Position numbers and translations under genes: made by a program | Assembly: GCA_036378675.1 (NCBI GenBank) | Contig: DASUWA010000005.1 | Location: 62,001-126,000 of the forward strand | Direction of reading: 5' to 3' | Origin: Acidimicrobiales bacterium | GTDB taxonomy: Bacteria > Actinomycetota > Acidimicrobiia > Acidimicrobiales > Palsa-688 | Length of the DNA: 64,000 bases | The notes under the pieces: model-generated | The model's database searches: none | The model's input: the letters and a program-made list of their open reading frames with translations, nothing else | What the model was told of the DNA's origin: nothing | Shown here: piece by piece, positions 2,913 through 24,362 of the stretch | How positions within the stretch are numbered: position 1 is the stretch's first letter | Layout of the letters: the number at the start of each line of letters is the position of its first letter

Positions 2913-2940
2913 GCACACTTCTTAGGCACACTTCTTAGAC
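2901..2940. repeat. three tandem 13-bp repeats carrying stop codons
   Basis: The unit CACACTTCTTAGG occurs three times in tandem (the last copy ends GAC). The first copy contains the stop of the upstream AIM24 gene. Because 13 is not a multiple of three, the TAGs at 2910, 2923 and 2936 fall in all three forward frames. Confidence 0.85.
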
Positions 2941-2972
2941 ACCCGAGTCAAGGGAAAGCTCCGAGCCGCCAC

Positions 2973-3878
2973 ATGACCTCCCCGACTTCGATCTACACCT
3001 GCCGGTATTGCCGGTTGCAGAGCGACTTCAGCGCCGGCGCGCTGACCGCTTGCCCGCACTGCGGAGCGCCCGTCGACGTCGCCGCGGCGGTCAGCCGTTC
3101 CGGATGGGAGAAGCAGCCGCCGATCGCCGACATGGCCCGTATCCAGTTCGGCCAGTCGACGGTTCAAATCGAAGGCAAGTTCGTGCCCACCGCGGACTTC
3201 CGCCTCGCGGGCGGCGAGCGCATCTACTTCTCCCACCACACTCTCCTCTGGACGGAGCCGTCGGTTCAGATGGGAACGACGGCGATGGCCGGAGGGTGGA
3301 ACAGAATGCGGGCCGGCCTGCCTCTGGTGATGCTCGAAGCGGGAGCTTCCGGTCACATCGCTCTGTCCGAAGACGCGCCCGGCGAGATCCTCGCTCTTCC
3401 TCTCCAGCACGGGCAATCCGTCATCGTGCGCGAGCACAGATTCCTGGCCGCGACTACCAACGTCGGGTACACCTGGCAGCAATCGAACGTGTGGATCACG
3501 ACCGGCTCCGGAAACGAGCAAGAGACCCATTACCCGATGGGGGTGTTCCTCGATCTGTTTGGCGCCCAAGACGGTCCTGGGCTCCTTCTCCTTCACTCGC
3601 CTGGGAACACATTCATCCGAGATCTCGGTCCCGGCGAGACAATCTGCATTCAGCCGAGCTCGCTTCTCTATAAGGACCCGGGCGTCGGGATGCAGCTGCA
3701 TATCGAGTACCCAAATTCCGGCGGCGTCCAGTTCGGCTTTGGGCGCAACTACAGCTATCGCAACGTATGGCTGCGCATGTGGGGACCGGGGCGGGTCGCG
3801 GTGCAATCGGTGTTCGAGCGGCCGGAGGAGTCGGGCTACATCACCAGCTGCTCGCCGGCGACCACGATGTCATGGTGA
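2973..3878 (+). CDS. AIM24-family protein with N-terminal zinc ribbon (copy 2)
   Basis: This 301-residue paralogue of the preceding gene has the same order: a zinc ribbon (C10, C13, C27, C30), a SRSGWEKQP-type linker, then the AIM24 beta domain (GGERIYFSHHTLLW, GPGLLLLHSPGNTFIRDLG, GETICIQPSSLLYKD). It is about 37 residues longer, through a loop near residues 165-180 and a C-terminal extension with a YITSCSP segment. It starts 60 bp after copy 1 with only the tandem repeat between, so the two look like an operon made by local duplication. The function is unknown; family members are predicted beta-sandwich scaffold or membrane-associated proteins. Confidence 0.75.
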   Translation: MTSPTSIYTCRYCRLQSDFSAGALTACPHCGAPVDVAAAVSRSGWEKQPPIADMARIQFGQSTVQIEGKFVPTADFRLAGGERIYFSHHTLLWTEPSVQMGTTAMAGGWNRMRAGLPLVMLEAGASGHIALSEDAPGEILALPLQHGQSVIVREHRFLAATTNVGYTWQQSNVWITTGSGNEQETHYPMGVFLDLFGAQDGPGLLLLHSPGNTFIRDLGPGETICIQPSSLLYKDPGVGMQLHIEYPNSGGVQFGFGRNYSYRNVWLRMWGPGRVAVQSVFERPEESGYITSCSPATTMSW

Positions 3879-9884: not shown

Positions 9885-11360
9885 ATGTCGGCTACGGAAC
9901 TGGGGGATGTCGGAGAGCTCGTTCGGGCGCTATCGGTCGATCAGCACGGGATCGAGCCGATACCCGATGGCGACCGCGACTCGACGGCCTGGCAGCAGTT
10001 CTGGATCTGGTTCGGCGCCAATATCTCTCCGCTTCAATGGGTGGCCGGAGCGATCGGGCCTCAGCTTGGCCTGAGTTTGGTTCAGTCGATCGTGATCATG
10101 GCGGTTGGGCAGGCTGTGGGCGCGCTGATCTTCGGCGCTTTTACCCTGATGGGCAAGCGGACTGGCGTGTCGCAGTTCGCCATGGGCCGGATGGCGTTCG
10201 GCCGGAGGGGCAACAACCTCCCATCGATCATCAATGGCGTTATCACCCTGTCGTGGATCGGGCTGAACACCTACGTGGTCCTCAGCCTGGCCACCTACTG
10301 CCTCCACAAGCTCGGGTTGCCGAACAATCACACCACCGAATACAGCGTCGCAGCCGTGATCATGATCATCCAGATAGTCATCGGAACGCTCGGCTTCTAC
10401 GCCATTCGTACGTTCGAAAAGTGGACCGTCCCGATATTCGCTGCGGTAATGGCGGTGATGACGGTTCTGGCGTTCAGCAAGGGACACATTGTGTGGAACC
10501 GCTCGACCGTACACGGGTCCGGGCTCATCACCGCTTCGAGCGAGCTGATGACTGCGGTGGGGATCGGCCTGGGGCTCGGCTGGGCGCCCTGGGCTTCAGA
10601 CTATTCGCGGTTTACGCGGCGCGAGGTCACCGAGAAGCGCCTGTACTGGGCGTCCGCGAGTGGCACGTTTATCGCGGTGATTTGGCTCGGTGTTCTCGGC
10701 GCCGCGATGGCCAGCAGCTCGACCCGCAGCGACCCCGCTGAGCTCGTCGCCTCGCTATTCGGGGTGATGACGATCCCAGTCCTGCTGGTGATCATCCACG
10801 GCGCCGTCGCCGGGAACATCCAGTGTGTCTACTCGGCGCCGCTGTGCTTTCTGGCGGGCGGTATCAAGATTAAACGCTGGATGGGGAGCGTTATCAGCGG
10901 CGTGGTCGCCAGTGCCGTCATGGTTGGGTTCCTGGAGTCAACCAAGTTTGTTACCTCGTTCACCAACTACATGAACTCGTTCGTGATCTGGACGGCCGCG
11001 TGGGGGGTGATCGTGATCATCGACTTCTTCGTTCTCAACCGCGACCGGGCCGACGTGCCCGCGCTGTACGCGTCTGCTGCGACATCGCGTTATGGCGACA
11101 TTCGTTGGCGCTCGCTCGTCGCGCTGGGGGTCGGGCTGGTGGCGGGATGGACGCTCGAACACGGCAGTGCGTCGCTGTTCCAGGGTCCGATCTCGCGGGC
11201 TACTAACGGTGTGGACTTCTCGTGGCTGTCGTCGATCGCGTTTGGTGGGCTGGCGTATTGGTTGCTGTGCCGCCCTGGGCCGTATCTCGTCACCGCACCT
11301 TCGCTAGCCTCCAGCGATGGCGGCCAGGTCGTGGCCCAGGACAACGCGGCACCAGCATGA
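9885..11360 (+). CDS. NCS1-family nucleobase/cation symporter
   Basis: The 491-residue membrane protein has about 12 transmembrane helices and NCS1 landmarks: WIWFGANISPLQW in helix 1, QFAMGRMAFGRRGN, and SWIGLNTYVV. A GLGWAPWASDYSRF loop is typical of the cytosine and purine permease branch. It should import a nucleobase or related compound (cytosine, allantoin, hydantoin or thiamine-like) with a cation. A ribosome binding site (GGTGAGG) precedes the ATG at 9885. Its stop overlaps the start of the following LuxR-type regulator (ATGA), so the two are likely translated together. The substrate cannot be assigned from sequence alone. Confidence 0.9.
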   Translation: MSATELGDVGELVRALSVDQHGIEPIPDGDRDSTAWQQFWIWFGANISPLQWVAGAIGPQLGLSLVQSIVIMAVGQAVGALIFGAFTLMGKRTGVSQFAMGRMAFGRRGNNLPSIINGVITLSWIGLNTYVVLSLATYCLHKLGLPNNHTTEYSVAAVIMIIQIVIGTLGFYAIRTFEKWTVPIFAAVMAVMTVLAFSKGHIVWNRSTVHGSGLITASSELMTAVGIGLGLGWAPWASDYSRFTRREVTEKRLYWASASGTFIAVIWLGVLGAAMASSSTRSDPAELVASLFGVMTIPVLLVIIHGAVAGNIQCVYSAPLCFLAGGIKIKRWMGSVISGVVASAVMVGFLESTKFVTSFTNYMNSFVIWTAAWGVIVIIDFFVLNRDRADVPALYASAATSRYGDIRWRSLVALGVGLVAGWTLEHGSASLFQGPISRATNGVDFSWLSSIAFGGLAYWLLCRPGPYLVTAPSLASSDGGQVVAQDNAAPA

Positions 11361-14119
11361 GGCATGCCCCTCACCTGCCGGCCTCGGGGTTGCTCGACCG
11401 CGGCAGCGAGCGCGACGTCCTAGAAGAACTCGTGGGGCGAGTGCGCGCTGGCCAGAGTGGTGTGCTCGTACTTCGCGGCGAGGCCGGAATCGGCAAGACG
11501 GCCCTGCTTGACCATCTGGCAGCCGTTGCCGAGGGATGCCGGATTGCCCGGGCGGCGGGCGTCGAATCCGAGATGGAGCTCGCATTCGCCGGGTTGCACA
11601 CCCTGTGCGCGCCCATGCTCGACCGTCTCGCGCGTCTGCCGGGCCCGCAGCGCGACGCGTTGAACACGGCGTTCGGCATCAGCGCCGGTCCCCCGCCGGA
11701 TCGCTTCCTGGTCGGGTTGGCGGTCTTGAGTTTGTTGGCCGACGGCGCCGAGGAGCAGCCGATTGTGTGCGTAGTCGACGACGCGCAGTGGCTCGACCGA
11801 GTGTCCGCGCAGACCCTCGCCTTCGTGGCGCGACGGCTTTTGGCCGAGCGGGTGGGATTGGTGTTCGCGCTCCGCGGATCCGACGACGCTAACGAGCTCC
11901 AGGGGTTGCCGGAGCTCATGGTCGAAGGTTTGCCGCCCGCTGACGCCCGGCTTCTGCTCGACGCGACTATCCCCGGTCTGCTCGACGCCAAGGTGCGGGA
12001 TCGGATCCTGGGCGAGGCAGGTGGTAACCCCCTCGCGCTCCTTGAGCTGCCGCGCGGGTTGACACCGATGGCAGTGGCGGGGGGATTTGGGCTGCCCGGG
12101 GAAATGCCGCTGACCAGCCGTATCGAACAGGGCTTCGTTCGGCAACTGGAATCGTTGTCGACAGACACCCGGCTGCTGCTGCTCCTGGCGGCGGCGGAGC
12201 CGGTTGGCGACGTGACGCTGCTGTGGCGCGCCGCAGAGAGGATCGGCATCGGGCCCGAGGCGACGGCGCCGGCCGAGGCCGCTGGCTTGCTGGAGATTGG
12301 CGCCCGGGTGCGGTTCCGCCATCCGCTCGTCCGGTCAGCGGCTTACCGGGCCGCGCCGGAAGCCGCGCGACGCGAGGTCCACAGGGCGCTCGCCGGTGCG
12401 ACGGACGCGCGAGTGGACCCGGATCGACGAGCCTGGCATCTCGCTCGGGCTGCCGACGGGCCCGACGAGGTCGTGGCCGGCGAGCTGGAGCGATCGGCTG
12501 ACCGGGCGCAGGCACGCGGTGGGCTGTCTGCGGCCGCCGCGTTCCTGCAGCGTGCGGCCGAGCTGACGCCGGATCCCGCGGTGCGCGTCGAACGCTCTCT
12601 CGCGGCCGCCCAAGCGAAGCTCGACGTTGCCGATGCCGGGTCGGCGTCCGAGCTCTTAGCCGCCGCCGAGCTTGGGCCGGTCGACGGATTTCAGCGCGCC
12701 CGGCTGGACCGGTTGGGCGCGCAGATCGTGTTCGCCCGCCAGCGCGGGCGCGACGCGCCGCCGCTCCTGCTCGAGGCCGCGAGGGGGCTTGATCACCTCG
12801 ATGCAGCGATGGCCCGGGAGACCTACCTAGAGGCGATGGCGTCGGCGATGTTCGCTGGACGGTTGGGCGTGGGCCCCGATGAGCGCCAGGTGGCTGAGGC
12901 CGCCCGGGCGTCGAACCGACCGCAAGAGCCGGGCCCAGCCGACGTGCTTCTCGACGCGCTAGTGACGCGCTTCACTGAGGGGTACGCGGCCGCAGTCGAG
13001 CCGCTTTCGCAGGCCCTGCGCTTGTTCGTCGAACCCGAAGGCGTGGGATCGGACCGGCGGTGGTTGTGGCTGGCGTGCCGCCTCGCCCAAGATCTCTGGG
13101 ACGACGAGCTCTGGCACCTACTTGCGACCCGCGGCGTGCGCCGGGCGCGCGACACGGGCGAGCTTCACCTACTCCCGATCGCACTGAACTATCTCGCCGC
13201 GCTAAATGTCCATTCGGGCGCGTTCGCCACAGCTGCGGTGCTGATCGACGAGGTCGATGCGATCACGCAGGCGACCGGACTCCCGCCGCTCAAGTACTCG
13301 GCAGCCATGCTGGCCGCCTCTCGCGGCGACGAGGGGCCGGCCCAAGCGCTGTTCGAATGGGGTTGGCGGAATGCGACGGAGCGGGGCGAGGGCTCGGCGG
13401 TTGGGATGGTTTGGGGGCTTCGGGCGTTGCTGTACAACGGGCACGGCCACTACAGCGAGGCGCTCACGGCTGCGCGGCAGGCGTGCGAGCGCGAGGAGGT
13501 TATTGGCTACGGCTGGGCGCTGGTCGAGTTGATCGAGGCCGGTGTCCGCAGCGGTCGTTCCGATGCAGCCGTCGCCGCGCTCGAGTGCCTGACCGAACGC
13601 ACACAGGCGAGCGGCACCGAGTGGGCGCTGGGGATCGAAGCCCGCTGCCGGGGGCTACTCACCGACGACGAGTCCGTGTATCAGGAATCGGTTGAACGGC
13701 TGGCGCGGAGCCGTGCGACGGTCGAGTTGGCACGCAGCCGGCTCGTGTACGGCGAGTGGCTGCGTCGTGAGAACCGTCGCGTTGACGCCCGCGAGCAATT
13801 GCGCGCTTGCCACGAGATGTTTAGTCGCATGGGCGCAGAAGCGTTCGCCGAGCGCGCCCGGCGCGAGCTATTGGCGACTGGTGAGACGGTTCGCAAGCGT
13901 ACGGTCGATACCAGCGAGGATCTCACCGCGCAGGAAGCCGAAGTTGCCCGGCTCGCTCGCGAGGGGTACAGCAACCCGGAGATCGGCGCCCAGCTGTTCG
14001 TCAGCCCTCGGACCGTCGAGTACCACCTGCGCAAGGTATTCGCAAAGCTCGGAATAAGTTCGCGTAAAGAACTCCGCACGGCGCTCCCACGGGTCAAGCA
14101 AGGACCAATACCTGCCTAG
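11357..14119 (+). CDS. LAL-type LuxR regulator with AAA ATPase domain
   Basis: The 920-residue cytoplasmic regulator has an N-terminal P-loop NTPase with Walker A GEAGIGKTALL (about 41-51) and Walker B VCVVDDAQWLD. A long helical repeat-like middle follows. A C-terminal LuxR helix-turn-helix occupies about 855-910 (LTAQEAEVARLAREGYSNPEIG). This is the large ATP-binding LuxR (LAL/MalT-like) plan, in which ligand and ATP binding drive activation of transcription. The ATG at 11357 overlaps the permease stop. That start gives LLDRGSERDVLEEL close to the N-terminus, as in relatives. Coupling to the permease suggests the transported compound or its metabolite as the signal. That is inference. Confidence 0.9.
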   Translation: MRHAPHLPASGLLDRGSERDVLEELVGRVRAGQSGVLVLRGEAGIGKTALLDHLAAVAEGCRIARAAGVESEMELAFAGLHTLCAPMLDRLARLPGPQRDALNTAFGISAGPPPDRFLVGLAVLSLLADGAEEQPIVCVVDDAQWLDRVSAQTLAFVARRLLAERVGLVFALRGSDDANELQGLPELMVEGLPPADARLLLDATIPGLLDAKVRDRILGEAGGNPLALLELPRGLTPMAVAGGFGLPGEMPLTSRIEQGFVRQLESLSTDTRLLLLLAAAEPVGDVTLLWRAAERIGIGPEATAPAEAAGLLEIGARVRFRHPLVRSAAYRAAPEAARREVHRALAGATDARVDPDRRAWHLARAADGPDEVVAGELERSADRAQARGGLSAAAAFLQRAAELTPDPAVRVERSLAAAQAKLDVADAGSASELLAAAELGPVDGFQRARLDRLGAQIVFARQRGRDAPPLLLEAARGLDHLDAAMARETYLEAMASAMFAGRLGVGPDERQVAEAARASNRPQEPGPADVLLDALVTRFTEGYAAAVEPLSQALRLFVEPEGVGSDRRWLWLACRLAQDLWDDELWHLLATRGVRRARDTGELHLLPIALNYLAALNVHSGAFATAAVLIDEVDAITQATGLPPLKYSAAMLAASRGDEGPAQALFEWGWRNATERGEGSAVGMVWGLRALLYNGHGHYSEALTAARQACEREEVIGYGWALVELIEAGVRSGRSDAAVAALECLTERTQASGTEWALGIEARCRGLLTDDESVYQESVERLARSRATVELARSRLVYGEWLRRENRRVDAREQLRACHEMFSRMGAEAFAERARRELLATGETVRKRTVDTSEDLTAQEAEVARLAREGYSNPEIGAQLFVSPRTVEYHLRKVFAKLGISSRKELRTALPRVKQGPIPA

Positions 14120-14251
14120 ACCCTCTTCGGCCCTCCGGGCACTCGGGTTTCCGGAAGGAGTTCCTGCCCGGCCGTTGCGAGTCAGGCAGTTCGCCGGACT
14201 GATGCCGCGATCCGACCGAGGTACGAGGTTCGCGTGGCACACAGCTCGACT

Positions 14252-14274
14252 AGGGAGTTTCACAGACTCGATAG
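14252..14274 (+). promoter_or_regulatory. shared 23-bp upstream motif, copy 1
   Basis: The copy begins AGGGAGTTTCAC and ends AGACTCGATAG, 59 bp before the alpha/beta hydrolase start. It matches four other copies (19908, 20471, 22304, 23346), all upstream of genes of this island. It may be a promoter for an alternative sigma factor or an operator. Confidence 0.6.
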
Positions 14275-14333
14275 CTAGTCGATCGATGCAGGATTCAACT
14301 CGGGAAACCCAGCGATTGCAAGGAGCACTGTCA

Positions 14334-15299
14334 ATGTCACTGCTTACAAACAAGGTCGTTCTTGAGCCCGCCGTTCAGGAAGTGGCCGAGGCCACCTCAA
14401 AACCGCCGTTCGTCTATCAGCTGGACTATGCAGCCGCCCGCAAAGTCCTTGACGATCTTCAGGCCGCGACACCGGTCGTCAAGCTGCCTATCGACGAGGA
14501 GTGGACGACAGTGCCCTCCTCCTTCGGTGACGCACGTGTACGCATCATCAAGCCGCAGGGCGCCCAGGGCATCCTGCCCGCCATCGTCTACATGCACGGG
14601 GGTGGTTGGGTGCTGGGAAACGCCGGCACACACGATCGGCTTGTACGAGAGCTAGCGGTCGGCGCTAATGCTGCTTTGGCCTTTGTTGAGTATCCGAACT
14701 CGCCCGAAGCGCGCTACCCGGTAGCGATCGAGCAGGGATACGCCACCGCTCAATGGATCGCCCGCGAAGGCGCGTCCAAGGGCCTGGATCCCAGCCGGAT
14801 CGCGGTGGTCGGCGAGTCGGTTGGCGGCGACATGACTGCAGCCCTGGCCCTTATCGCCAAACAACGCGGCGACGTGCGCTTCGTCCACGTCGGCATGTAC
14901 TACCCGGTTACCGATGCTGCCATGAATACAGCCTCGTACGACGAGTTTGCTGACGGTCCCTGGCTCACCCGCAACGGCATGGAGTGGTTCTGGGACGCCT
15001 ATATCGCCGATCCGGCGCAACGGTTGGAGATCACAGCATCGCCAAATAACGCCACCATCGAGCAGCTAAGGGGGCTCCCCCCCACCCTCCTGATTGTCGA
15101 TGAGGCGGATGTGCTGCGAGACGAGGGCGAGGCCTACGCCGCCAAGCTACGTCTCGCGGGCGTCCAGGTCACGACCGTTCGCTACGACGGGACCTGTCAC
15201 GACTTCATGATGCTCAACGCGCTCAGCCAGACCAGGGCCACACGAGCCGCCATAGCCCAGGCCACCGCCTTCCTTCGTCAAGCCTTCCAAACCGATTGA
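14334..15299 (+). CDS. alpha/beta hydrolase, hormone-sensitive-lipase family
   Basis: The 321-residue esterase/lipase-like protein has the oxyanion-hole motif HGGGW at 88-92 and the nucleophile elbow GESVGG at 160-165 with Ser162. The acid is probably the Asp in LLIVDEADVLRDEG, and the base the His in GTCHDFMM. This is the HSL (abhydrolase_3) family, hydrolysing small acyl or aryl esters. The ATG at 14334 is preceded by AAGGAG, and no signal peptide is visible. It is the first gene of the 14-24 kb island, behind one copy of the shared upstream motif. The natural substrate is unknown. Confidence 0.9.
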   Translation: MSLLTNKVVLEPAVQEVAEATSKPPFVYQLDYAAARKVLDDLQAATPVVKLPIDEEWTTVPSSFGDARVRIIKPQGAQGILPAIVYMHGGGWVLGNAGTHDRLVRELAVGANAALAFVEYPNSPEARYPVAIEQGYATAQWIAREGASKGLDPSRIAVVGESVGGDMTAALALIAKQRGDVRFVHVGMYYPVTDAAMNTASYDEFADGPWLTRNGMEWFWDAYIADPAQRLEITASPNNATIEQLRGLPPTLLIVDEADVLRDEGEAYAAKLRLAGVQVTTVRYDGTCHDFMMLNALSQTRATRAAIAQATAFLRQAFQTD

Positions 15300-15487
15300 G
15301 CTGGCCTCGATGACCCCCGCCGGGCTCCCGACTCGGGCATTTTCGGCTACGGCGGCGAAATAGCGTTAGTGCCCCAGCTCCGCGTCCACCGAATCAGTGG
15401 CGTATCCGCCCCGGCTGGGTGCCGCAGCGGAAATGCGCGGCGAGCCGATGAGCTTGTTGCTGAGATGCGAGGTAATGGAGGAATTTC

Positions 15488-18400
15488 ATGACTCAGACTT
15501 TGGCCGGCCAGGGCGCGCTCGCCCAGGTGATCGCGACACGCGGGGGACACGCCGCACCCGAATCTCCTTTCGTGATCGAGCACCGAGAAGCGCTGATCTA
15601 CATGCTTTGCGAAGCCGCGGAGCTCGAGCACGCGCTCATGTGTGAGTACCTGTTCGCGGCATTCTCCTTGAAGCAAAGGACAGACGAGGGTTTGACAGTC
15701 GAGGAACTGGCTGCGGTGGATGGGTGGCGGAAGGCTGTATCGCATATCGCTACCCAGGAGATGCTCCACCTCGCGCTGGTGCAGAACATCCTGTCGGCGA
15801 TTGGCGCGGCGCCCCACCTGAGCCGCCCTAACCTCCCGCAACCCGCCGGCCACTATCCGCCAGGGGTGATACTGACTCTGCTGCCCTTCGGCGAGGCTGC
15901 CCTCGAGCACTTCATGTTCCTCGAGAGACCAGAGGGTATGGACCTCGCCGACGCCCCTGGCCTCGCCGCTGTCGAGCGGGCGGCCCCGGTGATGCAGGAA
16001 GGCGAGATCGTCCCCCGGTTACAGGATTTCGCAACGGTCGGGCACCTGTACCGGTCGATCGAGGAGGGCATCAAGCACCTTTGCGACAAGTACGGCGAGC
16101 CGTGGCTGTTCGTCGGGCCTCCCGAAGCGCAGGCCTCCGAGCCACACTTCGGGTGGTCGCAGCTCGTCCAGGTTGTCGATGCGGCTTCGGCGCAACAGGC
16201 GATCGACACCATCCTCGAGCAGGGGGAGGGTCCGCGTGGCGACTGGCGCAATGCCCACTTCGGGTCGTTCGTCGAGGTCCTCGACGAGTTCCAGGAGCTC
16301 AAGCGGGCGAACCCGGACTTCGAGCCGGCGCGCTCGGTCCTCCCGGCCACCGTCAGGCCAAGCGAAGGAGAGCAAAACACGCCTCTCATTGAAGATCATT
16401 TCACGGGTCGCTGCGTCGACCTGTTCAACGTCAGCTACGAGGTCCTACTGCAGACTCTGGCTCGCTACTTTGCGCACACCAAAGAGACCGAGCCCGAAAT
16501 GACGTCGCTAGCCAAGGTCACTCTCGGTCTGATGTTCAACGTGATCAAACCTCTCGGCCAATTAGTAACGGAGCTTCCCGTCGGGAACACCTTCCCGGGA
16601 ATGTCCGCGGGACCGAGCTTCGAACTGTTCTACGAGAGCGATTACGTCTTTCCTCACCGGGATGCGGCGTGGGCTTTGATCGAGGAGCGCATTCGCGAGG
16701 CAGCCGCGTTTTCGGATCGCCTCAGAAGCGAGGGACCACCTGACGTCGCCGCCCGCCTCGAACCGGTTAGCTCAGCGCTACTGATGCTCGCGCATCAACT
16801 TGCCACGTGCCGGGCGGGTTGGGGGGGTCGCAACCACACCGGTGAAGTGACGGTGCGCCACCGCCGCCGCGGCGCCGAGAGAGCCAGGGCCAATCCTGAG
16901 GTAGAAGGACCAGTTCGCCGGCTAATCGATGCGTTGAGGGCAGCTCTGCTGATCGAACAAACCCCTGCGGTGGAGGCACTGTTCAAAGCGGCGTCGGAGC
17001 CTAAAGAAGAAGCCGCCAAGGGGGCCTCGCGTCGGGCGCTGTTTGCGGAATGGGAGCGACGGTTCGAGCTTCTGGTCGACGTGGCCGACCTGCTCGTTGG
17101 CGTCAACGGAGATACCGAGATCGAACCGCCAGATTTTGGATCCGCGTCGGACCTGACGGCGGCTGTCGACTACCACAAGATCAGCCAGCTCGTGCTGGCC
17201 GTGCCCACCGAGGGACTCCTCGTCGATCCCCACCCGTCCCCGACGTATGCACCCGAGGAGCGGCGCCAACCGTTGGCCGGGATCGTGGACACATCCTCCG
17301 CCATAGCGCTCGTTGAGAAGATCACCCGATCACAGCCTCCTGACGAGAGCAGCAGCAGAGATCCGGGACGAGCCGAGGGCGGTCTTGCAGCGGCCGGCGA
17401 TGCCTCATCGATCTCGGCCCTAGCAGGGCTCTTTGCAGACGCCTACGACCTGACGCTGTCCGTCCTGGGGTGCGCTGTCGGATCCGAACGGGATGTCGTC
17501 GCCGCCCGCCACCGTCTTCGTGACATCCTGTCCAGGTTGCGATCGAGGGTGCTCCGGCCGATCGCCGAAGCGCTCTGCCAGCAGATCAGCGAGCCAATGG
17601 TGGCTCTCCGGGACAAATACCGTTCGCGTGGTACAGAAAGGCCCTCAGACGCCGATCAGAAGATCCGATCTCTTGCCGTCAAGGCGAGCGAGATCCGAGC
17701 CGCCCTAAAGGACGCCGCTCCTGAAGTCCTCGAAGCGACCGCTGCCTTGCAGGACCTAGCGCTCTCCTTCACGTGCAGAGATGACGGCGAGCGCACCCGG
17801 CTGCTCGACACATTCGCCAGCATCGGGGTGGTCCAGCCAATGTCGATCCAGCTTGTCCGCAATGGACCCTATTTGCTTACGAATGTCGAGCAACTGAACG
17901 ACGGGCTAGGGGACTCGATCCCGGGTCGGCCACAGATGGCTGTTTGCCGGTGCGGCCAATCAAGGGACAAACCGTGGTGCGACGGCAGCCACGCGCTGGC
18001 CGATTTCGAGGATTCCAAGGACCCGAAGCGGGTCCCCGATCGTCGCGACACCTACAAAGGCGTCTCGATCACCGTCTTCGACAATCGCGGGATCTGCCAG
18101 CACTCGGGCTATTGCACCGACCGGATCCCGGCCGCCTTCCGAGTCGACAAGGAGCCCTTCGTGGCCGCGAGCGGAGCGCGGGCCGACGAGATCATCAGGG
18201 CAGTCCGGGCTTGTCCGTCCGGCGCCTTGAGTTTCGCCATCGAAGATGGCGAGGAGCGCGACCAAGTCGACTGGCACAACCGGCGCCCGCCTCGCGTCAC
18301 GGTTTCCAAGGACGGGCCCTACCGAGTGACCGGGTCTGTTCCACTGTTAGAGGCGACGGGTGACCCGGTTGTCAGAAATACAGGCGTTTCTACCGAGCAC

Positions 18401-19195
18401 TACGCCCTATGCCGATGTGGCCAATCCCAGAACAAACCGTTCTGCAGCGGAATGCACTGGTACGTCCAGTTCCGCGACCCCCTACCGGACCCGTCCCGGT
18501 CTCCGAGCCTGTACGAGTGGAGCGGGGGCATCTTGGCGCTCAACCGGGTGACCCGGCTGCTGTTCGAGAAGTACATCCCGCAGGACGCTCTGCTGGCTCC
18601 GCTGTTCGCCGACGCGACAGCCGATCTACCCGAACGTCTAGCTTCGTTGATCGGGGACGCCCTCGGCGGGCCCTCGCTCCCGCCGGAAGATCACCCCGAT
18701 TGCGCCGGGATCATGTTCGCGCACGACGGAAACGCTTTTTCCGAGGCCGAGCGACAACGCTGGGTGAGCCTCATCTGGCAATCAGCGAGAGATACCGGCC
18801 TGCTCACCGACGCGAACTTCTCGGCTGCCTTCAGTTCCTACATCGAATGGGCATCCCGCCAGACCGACGCTTCGGTGACCAAGTGGGACTGGGGCCCGGC
18901 CGGACCCCCACAAGCGCCCACGGAACCAACTAGCGGCACGGAACAGGCTGAGCCAGAACTCCCGCGCCCGGACATGCCCCTCAGCTTCGGAACCCACATT
19001 CGCCCCCTCTTCCGAGAACGCGACCGTCAGTCGATGTCCTTCGCGTTCGATCTTTGGTCATACGACGACGTCAAGGAGCATGCCCGATCCATCCTCGATC
19101 GCTTGCGCTCTGGAAGCATGCCTTGCGACGGCGCGTGGCCGGAAGCCAGAACCGACGTGTTCCAACGATGGGTCGACCAAGAGACACCCGCCTAA
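15488..19195 (+). CDS. multidomain redox fusion: ferritin-like, CDGSH, 4Fe-4S, CDGSH, globin-like
   Basis: This 1235-residue protein joins several metal domains. Residues 1-400 resemble the VioB/iminophenylpyruvate-type ferritin-like domain, with candidate iron ligands E45, H48, E53, E91 and H94 (EMLH). A helical region (about 450-790) follows, then a CDGSH cluster motif (C820, C822, C831, H835). Next come a divergent 4Fe-4S mono-cluster domain (C870, C876, C909 before Pro) and a second CDGSH motif (C975, C977, C986, H990). Residues about 1005-1130 resemble group II truncated haemoglobins (DALGGP, EAERQRWVSLIW, YIEWASRQ, KWDWG). The last 75 residues (IRPLFRERDRQSM ... MPCDGAWPEA) are a recurrent tail without a haem motif. 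GGAGG lies 6 nt before the ATG. No signal peptide is seen, so it is cytoplasmic. The overall reaction is unknown; electron transfer or oxygen/iron chemistry is likely. Confidence 0.85.
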   Translation: MTQTLAGQGALAQVIATRGGHAAPESPFVIEHREALIYMLCEAAELEHALMCEYLFAAFSLKQRTDEGLTVEELAAVDGWRKAVSHIATQEMLHLALVQNILSAIGAAPHLSRPNLPQPAGHYPPGVILTLLPFGEAALEHFMFLERPEGMDLADAPGLAAVERAAPVMQEGEIVPRLQDFATVGHLYRSIEEGIKHLCDKYGEPWLFVGPPEAQASEPHFGWSQLVQVVDAASAQQAIDTILEQGEGPRGDWRNAHFGSFVEVLDEFQELKRANPDFEPARSVLPATVRPSEGEQNTPLIEDHFTGRCVDLFNVSYEVLLQTLARYFAHTKETEPEMTSLAKVTLGLMFNVIKPLGQLVTELPVGNTFPGMSAGPSFELFYESDYVFPHRDAAWALIEERIREAAAFSDRLRSEGPPDVAARLEPVSSALLMLAHQLATCRAGWGGRNHTGEVTVRHRRRGAERARANPEVEGPVRRLIDALRAALLIEQTPAVEALFKAASEPKEEAAKGASRRALFAEWERRFELLVDVADLLVGVNGDTEIEPPDFGSASDLTAAVDYHKISQLVLAVPTEGLLVDPHPSPTYAPEERRQPLAGIVDTSSAIALVEKITRSQPPDESSSRDPGRAEGGLAAAGDASSISALAGLFADAYDLTLSVLGCAVGSERDVVAARHRLRDILSRLRSRVLRPIAEALCQQISEPMVALRDKYRSRGTERPSDADQKIRSLAVKASEIRAALKDAAPEVLEATAALQDLALSFTCRDDGERTRLLDTFASIGVVQPMSIQLVRNGPYLLTNVEQLNDGLGDSIPGRPQMAVCRCGQSRDKPWCDGSHALADFEDSKDPKRVPDRRDTYKGVSITVFDNRGICQHSGYCTDRIPAAFRVDKEPFVAASGARADEIIRAVRACPSGALSFAIEDGEERDQVDWHNRRPPRVTVSKDGPYRVTGSVPLLEATGDPVVRNTGVSTEHYALCRCGQSQNKPFCSGMHWYVQFRDPLPDPSRSPSLYEWSGGILALNRVTRLLFEKYIPQDALLAPLFADATADLPERLASLIGDALGGPSLPPEDHPDCAGIMFAHDGNAFSEAERQRWVSLIWQSARDTGLLTDANFSAAFSSYIEWASRQTDASVTKWDWGPAGPPQAPTEPTSGTEQAEPELPRPDMPLSFGTHIRPLFRERDRQSMSFAFDLWSYDDVKEHARSILDRLRSGSMPCDGAWPEARTDVFQRWVDQETPA

Positions 19196-19364
19196 CCTGA
19201 GCTAACACCGTGCGTACCCTTGCCGTGCTCCGACCCTCCTGGCGCCGTGGTGTTCTCTGATCAGCGGTGTGCAGGCGGCGTTCCCGGCGGCCTTTAGGTA
19301 CAAGACGGTGCCGGGGCAATCCAGCTGCGGTGAGGTCCGCCATTAGGCGGACGCTCGTGCTGGT

Positions 19365-19538
19365 TCAGGGACTGCCGCCCATCCTGTCCGTGAGGACATC
19401 CCGAGTCACGCCGTAGCGTGCTGACAGGTCTTGCACCTCTTTGAGTTCGACTTCGTCAGGTAGAGAATGCTCCGCAAGTTCCGCAATATCCGGCAAATGA
19501 GCACTATGCAGTGTCGCCACCACGTCACTCCGTTGCAT
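19365..19538 (-). CDS. possible small protein, 57 residues
   Basis: An ATG frame on the minus strand with GAAGGGA about 8 nt upstream encodes a 57-residue acidic, helical peptide (MQRSDVVATLHSAHLPDIAE ... RYGVTRDVLTDRMGGSP). Its start overlaps the end of another small frame at 19525-19614, so the pair could be translated together. No family was recognised. It may be real, or a chance frame in decayed DNA. Confidence 0.3.
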   Translation of the reverse strand: MQRSDVVATLHSAHLPDIAELAEHSLPDEVELKEVQDLSARYGVTRDVLTDRMGGSP

Positions 19539-19614
19539 CGCACGTTCCCTTCAATCTGTCGGTACCAGTCTTCATGAAAGATGTCATGCCGTGTTCGGCG
19601 GCGATAGTGCTCAT
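19525..19614 (-). CDS. possible small protein, 29 residues
   Basis: An ATG with AGGAG four bases upstream opens a 29-codon frame (MSTIAAEHGMTSFMKTGTD ...). It runs 14 bp into the next small frame. Only the ribosome binding site and the overlap support it; the function is unknown. Confidence 0.25.
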   Translation of the reverse strand: MSTIAAEHGMTSFMKTGTDRLKGTCDATE

Positions 19615-19907
19615 GGTGCTCCTTGCAGACGCAAGCTCGACGCGAAGCATGGTCACCTGCGCACAGCTGTGATCGCATCAGTGGAATGCCCCAGTCGGGA
19701 GTGGCGTGATCCGTAACGCGAGCGACGTCCTCCCAGGGTCGAGGCCTTAGTAGGTCTGCACTCCGGGAGGGTCTCTGCAACTTGTCAGTAGATCTTGATG
19801 GCCGCCTTCCCCTGCCGGTATCCGACGGCCCGGGTTATGAAGAGTTAAGCGGCGATCTCGGCGATGTGCGTTGAAGAGCCGGCGTATCGTCAACGTGAGC
19901 GCGGACC

Positions 19908-19930
19908 GGGGTGTTCTACGGAGGCGATCC
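19908..19930 (+). promoter_or_regulatory. shared 23-bp upstream motif, copy 2
   Basis: This copy starts GGGGTGTTCTAC and ends GGAGGCGATCC. The following bases (GCGACGTTGA then ATGA) also match the region after copy 5, so leader sequence as well as the motif is shared between these two places. Confidence 0.6.
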
Positions 19931-19956
19931 AACGCCGTTTGCGCGACGTTGATGGT

Positions 19957-20031
19957 ATGAGTATTGAGTTGCATTTTGAAGACGCACAGACAACCAGAAA
20001 ATTGTCGTTGATCAACCGAGTTCAGAGGTGA
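19957..20031 (+). CDS. possible 24-residue upstream peptide
   Basis: An ATG 26 bp after motif copy 2 opens a 24-codon frame (MSIELHFEDAQTTRKLSL ...). It stops in a GTGA overlap with the next gene at 20028. The same arrangement occurs before the hydrolase at 23445. Translational coupling is the likely purpose if the frame is real. Confidence 0.3.
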   Translation: MSIELHFEDAQTTRKLSLINRVQR

Positions 20032-20348
20032 CGCCTTTTGCATCAAGCGCCGAACGAGGTGATACGCACCTTGCCGCGCGTCGGAAACCAGGCGCCAACC
20101 GAAAGAACAGCACTGTCCCTCACAATGACAGTCAGCCGCAGGTGTGGATCGTCAGCACCGCCGAGCTCCACAACGGCCTGGGGTTCGAGGTAAGACGGGT
20201 CTTTGTCAGCGAGCACAGTGCGCTCTACCACGTCGAGGAGCAGTACAGCGTCGCTCCCGTGCTCGACGAGACCGGCGAATGGGAAGGTAGTTCAGCTTTC
20301 GGGCCGCCCCGCGAGATTGCGATCCAGCGATTCAACGTTGAGTCTTGA
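20028..20348 (+). CDS. hypothetical protein, 106 residues
   Basis: The GTG at 20028 overlaps the stop of a short upstream frame. The first 35 residues are low-complexity and basic. The remainder (PQVWIVSTAELHNGLGFEVR ... SALYHVEEQYSVAPVLDETG) looks like a compact mixed alpha/beta domain with a PPREIAIQRFN end. No family was recognised. The true start may lie further in, for example at the GTG of QVWIV. It precedes the first NAD(P)-binding gene in the same direction, about 200 bp upstream. Confidence 0.4.
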   Translation: MTPFASSAERGDTHLAARRKPGANRKNSTVPHNDSQPQVWIVSTAELHNGLGFEVRRVFVSEHSALYHVEEQYSVAPVLDETGEWEGSSAFGPPREIAIQRFNVES

Positions 20349-20470
20349 GTTGTCTCAGCTGTGCGTCGCCGCCCCCGCCACCCCAACGTGTGCCTGCGGA
20401 CGGTGAATCGGGCCAGGTGGCTCGACATCTCGTCGGGGCGCTCCCCGGTGGTCCCGCGGGAAATCGGACT

Positions 20471-20493
20471 GGGGAGTTAGACGGACTCGATTC
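20471..20493 (+). promoter_or_regulatory. shared 23-bp upstream motif, copy 3
   Basis: This copy begins GGGGAGTTAGAC and ends GGACTCGATTC. It lies 55 bp before the first NmrA-like gene (ATG at 20549) and 19 bp before an in-frame ATG at 20513. Confidence 0.6.
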
Positions 20494-20548
20494 ACGAGGC
20501 GAAGCAGCGACGATGAACTCGTCCAATAATCCGAAAGGACGGATCATC

Positions 20549-21307
20549 ATGAAAGTCACCGTCATTGGGGGTACTGGCCTCATCGGTTCCAAGGTGGTTC
20601 TCGACCTCGAGCAAAAGGGGCACGACGCTCTCCCGGCCTCACCCAACTCCGGTGTGAACACTCTCACCGGCGAAGGACTGGGGCTTGCCTTCAAGGGTGC
20701 GGCGGTCGTCGTCGATGTGTCCAACTCTCCATCCTTCGAGGACGCGGCAGTGGTGGAGTTTTTCGAGACCTCGACCCGGCACATCCTCGACCAGGCCGCC
20801 AGTGCGGGAGTGGGTCACCTTGTGGCGTTGTCGGTCGTCGGGACTGAACGCCTGCCCGGCAGCGGGTACATGCGGGCGAAGGTCGCACAGGAGAACCTGA
20901 TCAAAAGATCTTCCATCCCCTACTCGATCGTGCACGCCACCCAGTTCTTCGAATTCATCGGCGGCATCGAGGACGCTGCCACCGAGGGGGGAAACGTGAG
21001 ATTGCCATCGGTGCTGTTCCAGCCCGTGGCCGCGGACGACGTCGCCTTGACCGTGAGCGAGGTCGCCGTTGGAGCTCCGCTCATGGGCACGCTCGAAGTG
21101 GCCGGGCCCGAACAGTTTCGCTTCGACGAGCTGGTCCGGAGGGACTTGATCGCACGCGGAGATCCGCGCCCTGTCGTGGAAGACCGTCACGCTCGATACT
21201 TCGGTACCGAACTCGACGAGCGCTCCTTGGTGCCCGATGCTGGGGCCCGGCTGGGCGGGACTCGATACGAGGACTGGTTGGCGCGGTCCGCGAGTAAGGC
21301 GTCGTAG
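20549..21307 (+). CDS. NmrA/atypical SDR-family NAD(P)-binding protein (copy 1)
   Basis: The 252-residue protein begins with a complete Rossmann glycine motif, GGTGLIG at 7-13. It continues with VVDVSNSPSFEDAAVVEFF, a GVGHLVALSVVGTERLPGSGY strand-turn and a C-terminal half rich in VAGPEQFRFDEL. This is the plan of atypical SDRs related to NmrA and SDR_a5, which often act as NAD(P)-dependent reductases or redox-sensing regulators. The ATG at 20549 has AAAGGA 9 nt upstream; the ATG at 20513 would add 12 residues. Two bases separate its stop from the next small gene. A diverged paralogue lies at 22548. Confidence 0.82.
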   Translation: MKVTVIGGTGLIGSKVVLDLEQKGHDALPASPNSGVNTLTGEGLGLAFKGAAVVVDVSNSPSFEDAAVVEFFETSTRHILDQAASAGVGHLVALSVVGTERLPGSGYMRAKVAQENLIKRSSIPYSIVHATQFFEFIGGIEDAATEGGNVRLPSVLFQPVAADDVALTVSEVAVGAPLMGTLEVAGPEQFRFDELVRRDLIARGDPRPVVEDRHARYFGTELDERSLVPDAGARLGGTRYEDWLARSASKAS

Positions 21308-21309
21308 AG

Positions 21310-21582
21310 ATGCGCAGCGTGCTAGCGGGATCCGGCGAGCCGGCCGGCGATACCTTTTTCGCTTCCTTCCCAGACGGATGGTGGCCTGACCCCAACGACA
21401 ATGACGCTTATGTTCACGTTCGCGTCAGTAAACAAGTCCGGCCTACGGGATCGGTGACGGTGTATCTCCCGAACGGGACCGCCCTCCTCGTACCATCTCA
21501 GGCTCTCGTACGCCTCGCCCCGGTGGAACGCCAGCCGGCCGAACTTACCGCACTCGCACGAAACGCAGGCAACCCGACGTGA
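21310..21582 (+). CDS. hypothetical protein, 90 residues
   Basis: The gene starts two bases after the preceding stop and so belongs to the same transcript. The product has no recognised domain. It contains FFASFPDGWWPDPNDNDAY, then a beta-hairpin-like segment (HVRVSKQVRPTGSVTVYL) and a hydrophobic ALLVPSQALVRLAP. No signal peptide or membrane helix is evident. Its role is unknown; its place among NAD(P)-binding and hydrolase genes suggests an accessory stress function. Confidence 0.55.
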   Translation: MRSVLAGSGEPAGDTFFASFPDGWWPDPNDNDAYVHVRVSKQVRPTGSVTVYLPNGTALLVPSQALVRLAPVERQPAELTALARNAGNPT

Positions 21583-21698
21583 GCCCAGGTCCGGCGCGCG
21601 TTACGCGCCCTGGTCATGCGGGGTCCGGCGTTGTCACCCCACGATGCTCGGGATCGCGGTTCGTTGACCCCATCGCCGTTAATCGAAAAGGAGTTGCC

Positions 21699-21965
21699 AT
21701 GCCCGAAACATGCCGTGATCTCACCGACGCCGAACAAAAAGTTGTCCGAGAGGTCCTCGACGAGGGCGTTCTTGTATCGGGTCTCGTTCCGATCGGCGGT
21801 GAGACCTGGGCGATATACGGGTCCATCCCCGTCGACGGCGAGGTGATTGTCGCCGAGTTTGACAACCGCGCTGACGCCGAGTCAGCACTTGAGCAGATCG
21901 GGGCAGCAGAGCGGGACAACGCCCCCTTCGAATCGTCACCAATCGATGAGAAGGGATCATTATGA
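21699..21965 (+). CDS. hypothetical protein, 88 residues
   Basis: The ATG at 21699 has AAGGAG five bases upstream. The product (MPETCRDLTDAEQKVVREVL ... GGETWAIYGSIPVDGEVIVAEF) is a small acidic alpha/beta protein of unknown family. Its end overlaps the next start by four bases (ATGA), which signals coupled translation. It is part of the run of small genes between the two NAD(P)-binding paralogues. Confidence 0.6.
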   Translation: MPETCRDLTDAEQKVVREVLDEGVLVSGLVPIGGETWAIYGSIPVDGEVIVAEFDNRADAESALEQIGAAERDNAPFESSPIDEKGSL

Positions 21966-22219
21966 GTGATGCCGACGACCAGTTAACCGATTCTCCCGCC
22001 GTGCTTGACCGGCGCAGACTTTTCGAAGAGGTCAGGGTTCGCTTATCCGCTGTCACCGACAGCCTCTCTGACTTCAAAATGGAAGCCGGACAGCTACGGA
22101 CAACCTCTCAAGAGCTTCTCGCAGTCGTCCACCGTATCGAGTGGCTCGCCGACCTCAGCACTCCTGGGCCGTTCACGAGATCGGCATCCAGCGCTTCGCT
22201 GACCACGCTTGACCTCTGA
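21962..22219 (+). CDS. hypothetical protein, 85 residues
   Basis: The gene starts in an ATGA overlap with the preceding one and has AAGGGA upstream. The product is mostly helical with heptad-like spacing (RRLFEEVRVRLSAVTDSLSD ... QLRTTSQELLAVVHRIEWL). That suggests a small coiled coil that may pair with a partner. No family was recognised. Confidence 0.55.
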   Translation: MSDADDQLTDSPAVLDRRRLFEEVRVRLSAVTDSLSDFKMEAGQLRTTSQELLAVVHRIEWLADLSTPGPFTRSASSASLTTLDL

Positions 22220-22303
22220 TCCTGCTCGGGAGCCACCGTTCCAAGTCTGAAGCGTCTGACCGGGCCTCGAAGTATCTGGCGGTCGATCCTTTGGGCCTCA
22301 ACT

Positions 22304-22326
22304 GGGGTGTTACCAGGACTCGATTG
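22304..22326 (+). promoter_or_regulatory. shared 23-bp upstream motif, copy 4
   Basis: This copy begins GGGGTGTTACCA and ends GGACTCGATTG, 51 bp before the small gene at 22378. Confidence 0.6.
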
Positions 22327-22377
22327 TTTGGCGTTCCCGCGAGCATGTGTTTGTCGATCCACGAGGAAGGGGAGCCA

Positions 22378-22551
22378 ATGTCTGACCAACATTCGACAGC
22401 TTCGATCGGTCACGCTTTCGTTGGACAACCAGCGAGCGGGAGCGCCCGCGACCGAACACTCCAGGACGGCCGGCCTTGGGAACACGCGATCGATAACGTG
22501 CCGGTGAGCGATGCGCCGACAGTGCCCCGAGAAAGCACGGAAGCGACATGA
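22378..22551 (+). CDS. hypothetical protein, 57 residues
   Basis: A ribosome binding site (GAAGGGG) precedes the ATG, and the end overlaps the next start by four bases (ATGA). The product is hydrophilic, Ser/Asp-rich and without recognisable domain (MSDQHSTASIGHAFVGQPAS ...), probably disordered. It may serve mainly to couple translation of the NAD(P)-binding paralogue downstream. Confidence 0.45.
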   Translation: MSDQHSTASIGHAFVGQPASGSARDRTLQDGRPWEHAIDNVPVSDAPTVPRESTEAT

Positions 22552-23390
22552 AGAGAATCGTCGTCGTCGGAGGCATCGATTTCGTAGCCTCTATGGTCGT
22601 CGAGAAACTCCGCGGCCGGGGTTACGAGGCTGTGGCGGCCTTAGATGCAAACACTCTCACGGGCGAACGACTTGCCAAGGCCGTCCGAGGAGCGGCGGTC
22701 GTCATTGTTGTGTGTAAGTCGCAGTCCCGCGATGACGCGGCGCTCCTCAGGTTTTTTGAAACCTCGACCCGCAACATCCTCGATTACTCCCTGAGGGCGG
22801 GCGTAGGCCATCTCGTCGCGTTTTCCGTGGTCGGCGGCGACCGCCTGCCAGATAGCGGTTACCTGCGAGCGAAGAACCGAGAAGAGGAGCTCATTGCGAA
22901 CTCATCGATCCCGTTTTCCATGGTTCGCACCACGCAGCTCTTTGAGAGCATTGCCGGGATAGCGGATGACGCCACACATTATTCGACGGTCCTGCTCCCG
23001 CCCGTGCTGGTCCAACCGGTTGCTGCCAGCGACGTGGCTTCTACCGTGACCACGATTGCGTTGGCCGGTCCCGTTGTGGGCGCCATTGAAGTGGCCGGCC
23101 CCGAGCAGTTTTGCTTCAACGAGCTCGTGCAGCGACACCTAATCGGTCGCGGAGTTCAACGGGTCGTCGTCGGGGATCCGTACGCCCACTACCTCGGGAC
23201 TGAACTCGACCACCAGTCACTCTTGCCCGGCGACAGCGCCGTTCTCGGCACGACGTGCTACGAGGAGTGGTTCACAGGGAGCGCGGGCAAGGCTCGCGGC
23301 GATGTTTCGATGGACGGGTCTCAGTCTCGCGTAGGTGTCGGGACTAGGGAGTCCAACGGAGGCGATCCAGGGCGAGCTGTGCGACGGTGA
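22548..23390 (+). CDS. NmrA-like paralogue with degraded NAD-binding motif (copy 2)
   Basis: The 280-residue protein is collinear with the gene at 20549 (shared FFETSTR-ILD, AGVGHLVA-SVVG, VAGPEQF-FNEL and YEEWF-type ends). Its first glycine motif, however, reads GGIDFVA instead of GGTGLIG, so the second and third glycines of GxxGxxG are Asp11 and Ala14. It probably binds the cofactor poorly or not at all and may act as a regulator or a partner of copy 1. The last ~35 residues are low-complexity and contain motif copy 5, so the C-terminus looks extended into a control region. The start overlaps the previous gene (ATGA). Confidence 0.78.
   Translation: MKRIVVVGGIDFVASMVVEKLRGRGYEAVAALDANTLTGERLAKAVRGAAVVIVVCKSQSRDDAALLRFFETSTRNILDYSLRAGVGHLVAFSVVGGDRLPDSGYLRAKNREEELIANSSIPFSMVRTTQLFESIAGIADDATHYSTVLLPPVLVQPVAASDVASTVTTIALAGPVVGAIEVAGPEQFCFNELVQRHLIGRGVQRVVVGDPYAHYLGTELDHQSLLPGDSAVLGTTCYEEWFTGSAGKARGDVSMDGSQSRVGVGTRESNGGDPGRAVRR
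23346..23368 (+). promoter_or_regulatory. shared 23-bp upstream motif, copy 5
   Basis: This copy begins AGGGAGTCCAAC and ends GGAGGCGATCC. With the preceding bases it forms a GGACT-AGGG-AGTCC dyad. It lies inside the 3' end of the paralogue gene, 76 bp before the hydrolase start. Confidence 0.6.
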
Positions 23391-23394
23391 AGCC

Positions 23395-23448
23395 ATGACA
23401 GAGGACACGACGATGTCGTTCCACCGAGCAAGGAGGAGTTCACCGTGA
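23395..23448 (+). CDS. possible 17-residue upstream peptide
   Basis: An ATG 26 bp after motif copy 5 opens a 17-codon frame (MTEDTTMSFHRARRSSP) whose stop overlaps the hydrolase GTG (GTGA). The AAGGAGGAG of the hydrolase lies inside it. The same geometry is seen at 19957-20031. Confidence 0.3.
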   Translation: MTEDTTMSFHRARRSSP

Positions 23449-24362
23449 CGTCAATCTCCGAACGGGAGCGGGGGGAGATCGAGGCCGCGAACGCGTCCGG
23501 CAAGAAGCCGGTCGTGTTGATCCACGGCCTATGGCTGTTGCCGAGCAGCTGGGCAAACTGGGCCGACTTCCTCCGGCAGGCCGGCTACGCACCGCTGACG
23601 CCGGACTGGCCCGACGATCCGGCAACGGTTGAAGCGGCCCGGGCGAACCCGAAGGTCTTCGCTAGGAAGACCTTGAAGCAGGTCGCCGATCACACCACAC
23701 AGATAATCGACGGGTTGGATGAGAAACCAGTGGTCATGGGGCATTCGACTGGGGGCTTGTTGGCCCAGATGCTCGCGGGCCGGGGTCTCTCGGCTGCCAC
23801 GGTGGCGATCGACCCCGGAGTCTTCCGCGGCGTCCTGCCCCTGCCGCCCCCAGTGCTCAGGTCGTCGGGTCCGTTCCTGATCAACCCGCTCACGCGCGGC
23901 CGCTCGATCACGCTTACGTTCAAGCAGTTCACCTACGGCTGGGCAAACGCGCTGGATGCGCGTGAGGCGAAGGACCTTTACCACACCTTTCACGTCGCCG
24001 GCTCTGGGATCTCCCTCACACAGATGGGCTTCGCCAACGTCAACCCGTGGACGCAAGCGAAGGTGAACACGAAGAACCCCGATCGAGGCCCGCTGCTGAT
24101 TATCGAGGGCGAGAGGGATCACACCGTACCGTGGGCGCTCGCCAATGCGGCCTACAAGCGGCAAGCCCGCAATCCTGGAGTCACGGAGATCGTGAAGATC
24201 CCGAGCCGAGGGCACGCCCTCACAATCGACCACGGCTGGCGTGAGGTCGCCCAGACTGCGCTGAACTTCATCCAGCGGGTACTAGGCAGCGACGTCGTGC
24301 CTAATGAAGACACGCAACGGGTAGGCGACGGCGCCTTTCACTCCTTTCGGTCGCCAGCCTGA
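23445..24362 (+). CDS. alpha/beta hydrolase
   Basis: The 305-residue protein has the canonical hydrolase elements: HGLWLLPSSW after strand 3, nucleophile elbow GHSTGG, acid in GERDHTVP and catalytic His in SRGHALTID. Relatives are annotated as lysophospholipase- or non-haem peroxidase-like hydrolases. The GTG start at 23445 has a strong AAGGAGGAG six bases upstream. The last ~20 residues are not conserved-looking. It ends the island and faces the sortase gene convergently across a 440-bp gap. The substrate is unknown. Confidence 0.88.
   Translation: MTSISERERGEIEAANASGKKPVVLIHGLWLLPSSWANWADFLRQAGYAPLTPDWPDDPATVEAARANPKVFARKTLKQVADHTTQIIDGLDEKPVVMGHSTGGLLAQMLAGRGLSAATVAIDPGVFRGVLPLPPPVLRSSGPFLINPLTRGRSITLTFKQFTYGWANALDAREAKDLYHTFHVAGSGISLTQMGFANVNPWTQAKVNTKNPDRGPLLIIEGERDHTVPWALANAAYKRQARNPGVTEIVKIPSRGHALTIDHGWREVAQTALNFIQRVLGSDVVPNEDTQRVGDGAFHSFRSPA

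Follow-up and report, generated by a model that had tools for sequence, protein, structure and literature searches.

The DNA analysed here, referred to as the window, is a 64,000-nucleotide stretch of an Acidimicrobiales bacterium genome (GCA_036378675.1, contig DASUWA010000005.1, positions 62,001 to 126,000 of the forward strand). Between about 14 and 24 kb it carries an island of genes before which a short motif recurs, and an initial annotation had reported five copies of 23 bp starting at 14252, 19908, 20471, 22304 and 23346. All five copies are real and align without gaps at these positions. As 25-bp boxes on the plus strand they occupy 14248–14272 (copy 1, GACTAGGGAGTTTCACAGACTCGAT), 19904–19928 (copy 2, GACCGGGGTGTTCTACGGAGGCGAT), 20467–20491 (copy 3, GACTGGGGAGTTAGACGGACTCGAT), 22300–22324 (copy 4, AACTGGGGTGTTACCAGGACTCGAT) and 23342–23366 (copy 5, GACTAGGGAGTCCAACGGAGGCGAT, within the 3' end of the open reading frame (ORF) at 22548–23390). 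A consensus search of the window, which recovered all five copies, also returned a sixth copy on the minus strand (19696–19672, GACTGGGGCATTCCACTGATGCGAT). The annotation had found no further copy in the window; its plus-strand set holds and the minus-strand copy had been missed.

Directly upstream of copy 1 lies the gene of a LAL-type LuxR-family transcriptional activator (11222–14119, plus strand). The ORF encodes 965 aa, the homologous length being about 910–920 aa, and the true start is probably near 11357–11390 because the 5' end of the ORF overlaps the upstream permease gene. Pfam identified an AAA_16 domain (E = 8.5e-17) and a GerE domain at residues 901–951 (E = 3.8e-14). The Walker A sequence GEAGIGKT occupies residues 86–93, and the C-terminal LuxR/GerE helix-turn-helix (HTH) contains the recognition helix SPRTVEYHLRKVF. 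About ten LAL paralogs with 41–54% identity are encoded in the same genome, including those at C27, C23, C16 and C66.

A gene follows each copy, as had been annotated, and those behind copies 1 to 5 are on the plus strand. The annotated spacing of 19–76 bp did not stand; counted from the last base of the box, the likely start codon is 54–79 nt away for four copies, 58 nt for the sixth and 100 nt for the copy at 19908, and in other genera the distance is mostly 53–68 nt. Copy 1 precedes an alpha/beta hydrolase gene (Abhydrolase_3, 14334–15299, the preferred start of ORF 14175–15299) by 62 nt, and copy 5 precedes a second alpha/beta hydrolase gene (Abhydrolase_6, 23445–24362) by 79 nt. The likely target of copy 2 is a small gene of no known family (20028–20348, 106 aa). 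Copy 3 lies before an NmrA-like gene (20549–21307) that is followed by ORFs 21310–21582, 21579–21965 and 21962–22219. Behind copy 4, a 57-aa ORF (22378–22551) overlaps a second NmrA-like gene (22548–23390), the product of which is 56% identical to the first. On the minus strand, copy 6 precedes a 29-aa ORF (19525–19614) with an AAGGAG ribosome-binding site.

We used pattern searches rather than matrix scans to examine how specific the motif is within its own genome. Allowing up to three mismatches, the core CTRGGGWGTYNNANNGASKCGAT had six matches in the window against 0.31 expected, a number reached by no shuffle. In the whole 4.135-Mb genome, five matches were found with up to two mismatches (control, 1), and these were the five annotated island copies. 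The initial annotation had named a motif that is frequent and unrelated to gene starts as the outcome that would speak against it; the genome searches did not produce this outcome, and at this threshold the matches were confined to the island. With up to three mismatches there were 20 matches versus 8 in the control, among which the six window copies stand out; of the matches outside the island, one is 2.4 kb away from the gene of a LAL paralog (C16:87701).

The box was also derived from other genomes. Public genomes contain over 500 candidate stretches coding for LAL relatives, from which 79 loci were kept. All 5-mer dyads within 1 kb on either side of these 79 foreign LAL genes were compared with DNA more than 4 kb away, and no window sites were used. 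CAGGG-N5-CCCTG was the top of 7245 dyads, with 13 occurrences near LAL genes at nine loci and none far away (p = 4.6e-11). Expectation-maximisation on the LAL flanks gave the refined box GACCAGGGANTNTCCCTGGNGCGA, which grades into the window copies through intermediate forms such as GACCAGGGATTACCACGGACGCGATC in Kribbella and GACCAGGGAGTTCCACTGGGGCGA in Rhodococcus rhodnii. When a matrix grown from foreign dyads only was applied to the 127,950 window positions, copy 1 ranked first and copies 5, 6, 2 and 4 fell within the top 15. The partial dyad GACT-RGGG-AGTY described previously was too narrow: better-preserved relatives have CCAGGG-N5-CCCTGG. The right half of this dyad is degenerate in the window boxes, which mainly keep the left half, and the window sites are thus asymmetric members of the box family with a good left half. 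Another dyad in the window (CCAGGATGTCGCCCTGG, 7178–7207) is situated within a polyphosphate kinase gene, has no −10 element in register and probably occurs by chance.

Alignment of 50 promoters on the box revealed only two other strongly conserved positions, an A at +39/+40 and a T at +43/+44, in columns outside those used to find the box. A-N3-T in one of the two registers, +39/43 or +40/44, was shared by all six window copies and 42 of the 44 foreign promoters. Counted by single offset, it occurred in 26 foreign promoters at +40 and in 17 at +39, compared with a mean of 1.9 across all scanned offsets. These columns correspond to the −11A/−7T signature of a −10 element, 39–44 nt past the box start, which the first reading of the sequence had not noted. 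In register with copies 1 to 5, the predicted −10 elements are CAGGAT (14289–14294), GACGTT (19945–19950), GACGAT (20509–20514), GAGCAT (22341–22346) and GACGGT (23383–23388), and that of copy 6 is GACCAT on the minus strand (19649–19654). This register places the GCGA(T) tail of the box at the −35 position. A −10 of the form xANNNT at normal distance from the box and −35 is what a sigma-70-type activator-dependent promoter contains. The dyad is of the kind that dimeric activators bind, and a −10 comes after it at normal spacing, so that the motif resembles a sigma-70-type promoter whose −35 is covered by an activator box. The suggestion of a new promoter class, if this means a promoter read by a new sigma factor, is therefore not supported, whereas the earlier statement that the motif is not a SigB/SigF or common extracytoplasmic function (ECF) promoter was correct. 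Promoters of those types have non-palindromic −35 and −10 elements 15–17 bp apart and no further −10; a dyad and a separate downstream −10 were found here.

Boxes of this family recur beside LAL genes in other genomes. An exact search for CCAGGG-N5-CCCTGGNGCGA in 12 genomes (about 98 Mb) gave 15 matches. Measured against 42 LAL genes, 12 of these were no more than 3.3 kb from one, and 13 no more than 10 kb. The mycobacterial form GACTACGGACTTTCMAGGGNTC had 12 matches in nine genomes, nine of them within 2.7 kb of a LAL gene, and its reversed control had none. Back-to-back pairs of boxes 50–130 bp apart that drive divergent genes are frequent (L043, L028, L035, L065 and L073). A second island of this kind is present in the same genome at C16 (L119), where a paralogous LAL gene is accompanied by boxes at 10467 (minus) and 15696 (plus), before genes for a pyridine nucleotide-disulphide oxidoreductase and an alpha/beta hydrolase.

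The sequence of the box varies with that of the recognition helix. A strong box accompanied 30 LAL genes. In their SPR/STH-TVEWH motif, the third residue was His in all 12 cases with CYACGG and Arg in all 18 cases with CCAGGG-type boxes, such that the His-C/Arg-G correspondence held in 30 of 30 (Fisher p = 1.2e-8). The same contrast was repeated within Kribbella (L055 vs L072) and within Streptomyces (L050 vs L027 and L033), indicating that the pattern is not confined to a single mycobacterial clade. The window LAL protein has Arg and the window boxes have G. When the helices are aligned on TV, the covarying residue presumably corresponds to Lys179 of DosR. Lys179, Lys182 and Asn183 of DosR contact bases (PMC4082495). 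Covariation between helix and operator is the strongest indication from sequence that LAL proteins would bind these boxes.

From the motif and its specificity in the genome, the fixed promoter geometry, the recurrence beside LAL genes in other genera and the covariation, we infer that each copy is an activator-dependent promoter bound by a LAL-type LuxR-family activator, most probably the adjacent 965-aa protein, and we assign this interpretation a probability of roughly 0.84. The upstream part of the motif (GACYRGGGWGTYNNNCGG) would be the binding site, with CCAGGG-N5-CCCTGG as the ideal dyad; the tail KCGAT would lie at −35, followed at normal spacing by a weak −10 (xANNNT). The LAL protein would depend on ATP and a ligand for binding to its sites, where it would recruit RNA polymerase of the sigma-70 type and so turn on the hydrolase, NmrA-like and small genes of the island. 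The proposal that the motif is an operator defining a regulon is thus supported, and it gains a probable regulator in the adjacent LAL gene, which had not been named. With LAL proteins very probably as the binders, a shared site beside related activators, apparently fused to an ordinary promoter in many actinobacteria, could be used to read off LAL targets. It is also reasonably likely that a large actinobacterial LAL subfamily shares one operator-promoter layout (a 25-bp dyad, its tail as −35 and a −10 at fixed distance) and a readable code, in which the third SPR/STH-TVEWH residue, Arg or His, specifies G or C in the half-site.

Several points weigh against these conclusions. The closest LAL homologs, with 60–62% identity (R. 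jostii L006, Kribbella L007 and L046, Pseudonocardia L026 and Solirubrobacter L009), have no clear box nearby. Most other LAL proteins with the VEYH helix of the window protein likewise lack a recognisable box of this kind in their vicinity, the only convincing exception being Solirubrobacter soli (L008, 17927), where a box lies about 5 kb from the LAL gene. Such homologs may use diverged sites. The 12 genomes of the exact search had been picked for holding boxes near a LAL gene, and the informative part of that result is therefore the fewness of matches elsewhere. The main foreign matrix was seeded with window sites; when the log-likelihood of this seeded fit was compared with that of permuted seeds, the latter converged onto GC-rich codon repeats. 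Copy 3 fell outside the top 15 with the matrix grown from foreign dyads, and a matrix of exact foreign dyads ranked the window copies only 14th and lower because it is too strict for half-degenerate sites. Finally, the test of covariation ignores phylogeny.

As an alternative with the same promoter logic, another of the LAL paralogs could be the cognate regulator, and the C16 paralog, with an Arg helix and two boxes of the same family nearby, is a case in point. We consider this unlikely, since the genome contains no further instance of the private variant of the window boxes (CTRGGGWGT...ASKCGAT) when up to two mismatches are allowed, and none of the window boxes is more than 10 kb from the adjacent LAL gene. 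Slightly less likely still is that the adjacent LAL protein acts as a repressor whose operator covers −35. Overlap of the box with −35 is compatible with repression; however, a −35 far from TTGACA combined with a weak −10 is expected of activator dependence, and the well-studied PimM-type regulators with boxes at −35 are activators (PMC9774167).

An ECF-type alternative sigma factor that reads GGACT as −35 and CGAT as −10 is very improbable. Some copies contain an ECF-like GGACT-N17-CGAT, and ECF sigma genes are found behind related boxes in other genera. However, the best-preserved relatives of the box are near-perfect dyads, a symmetry not required by sigma factors; 42 of 44 promoters have a second and properly spaced −10 downstream; and the ECF genes are themselves targets of the box. 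In addition, Pfam scans of the island and the nearest neighbouring window genes detected no sigma factor. That the copies are merely mobile or duplicated intergenic sequence with no regulatory role has next to no probability, even though the two NmrA-like genes of the island are paralogs. Mean pairwise identity is 73% over the 25-bp box and drops to 30% and 29% in the 60 bp on its upstream and downstream sides, respectively, yet the −10 remains in register; conservation limited to the box rules out recent duplication of entire intergenic regions. Moreover, the box recurs beside LAL genes in unrelated genera.

The genes directly behind boxes elsewhere suggest what an activator of this type would control. 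They encode NmrA-like proteins (in several Mycobacterium), glyoxalase-like proteins, epoxide hydrolases, short-chain dehydrogenases, pyridine nucleotide-disulphide oxidoreductases, AhpC/TSA-like proteins, alpha/beta hydrolases, tannase-like proteins, metallo-beta-lactamase fold proteins and ECF sigma factors. A Mycobacterium NmrA-like protein, encoded behind a box beside a LAL gene (L034), is 57% identical to the product behind window copy 3. In Mycobacterium (L076, 13601), Rhodococcus (L051, 9776), Kribbella (L055, 9319) and Streptomyces (L019, 11912), an ECF sigma factor gene immediately follows a box, and this occurrence in four genera suggests a LAL-to-ECF cascade. Judging from the gene families, the regulon may function in the handling of electrophiles or xenobiotics; the label 'stress regulon' is plausible in view of the detoxification-like enzyme families. 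These findings suggest that small gene islands encoding hydrolases, oxidoreductases, NmrA-like and glyoxalase-like proteins, and in some cases ECF sigma factors, are a common target of LAL proteins.

The remaining genes of the island include a large iron-protein gene without a box of its own (15488–19195), which is possibly transcribed by read-through from box 1. Its 1235-aa product, encoded on the plus strand, combines VioB-like ferritin-like, 4Fe-4S mono-cluster and CDGSH iron-sulphur domains in a single chain, a striking combination. Neither of the small proteins encoded at 20028–20348 and 21962–22219 belongs to a known family; their ends are similar (IAIQRFNVES and IGIQRFADHA), and the two could be paralogs inside this island. 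Elsewhere in the window, two AIM24-family genes are adjacent at 2118–3878.

LAL regulators are large and multiply represented (Streptomyces coelicolor has 14; PMC3282765), and for only a few of them is the site, ligand or target known. With a shared box, a fixed geometry and a match of one residue to one base, their regulons become predictable and testable; if the layout and code are indeed shared, the linked detoxification-like regulons of many orphan LAL proteins could be predicted from sequence. We found no matching description of the LAL box in the open-licence literature, which is weak evidence as only open papers were covered, and the nearest described sites are those of FkbN and PimM. 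DosR of Mycobacterium tuberculosis has a LuxR/NarL-type HTH that the window HTH matches in the PDB (1zlj), but it is a response regulator with another domain architecture and operator. TpdR of Rhodococcus jostii TMP1 is likewise a LAL activator and controls a catabolic operon, with a small molecule as inducer; it differs in its length of 788 aa and in its proposed site, the direct repeat TnnAAnnGCGGAnTC, which is unlike the LAL box (PMC6099782). MilO of mildiomycin biosynthesis is also a LuxR-family activator, situated in its cluster, but its site consists of three direct repeats of TGTC-N3-CGGT 142 bp upstream of the start site (PMC11784345). FkbN of tacrolimus biosynthesis is a LAL protein too, but from a secondary-metabolite cluster; two 7-nt inverted repeats similar to the site of PimM have been predicted as its target (PMC6022917). 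In the available part of its description, the PimM or PAS-LuxR box CTVGGGAWWTCCCBAG is a 16-bp palindrome over −35 (PMC9774167). Like the LAL box, it serves a LuxR-type HTH regulator, contains GGGA...TCCC and overlaps −35, where the register of the −10 also puts the tail of the LAL box. PimM itself is a small PAS-LuxR protein rather than a LAL protein and controls polyene biosynthesis, and that part of the source reports no GCGA tail such as the LAL box has (PMC9774167). The half-sites of the PimM box are one base closer, with four bases between GGG and CCC compared with five in the family dyad CAGGG-N5-CCCTG. The LAL box thus appears to work like a PimM box without being one.
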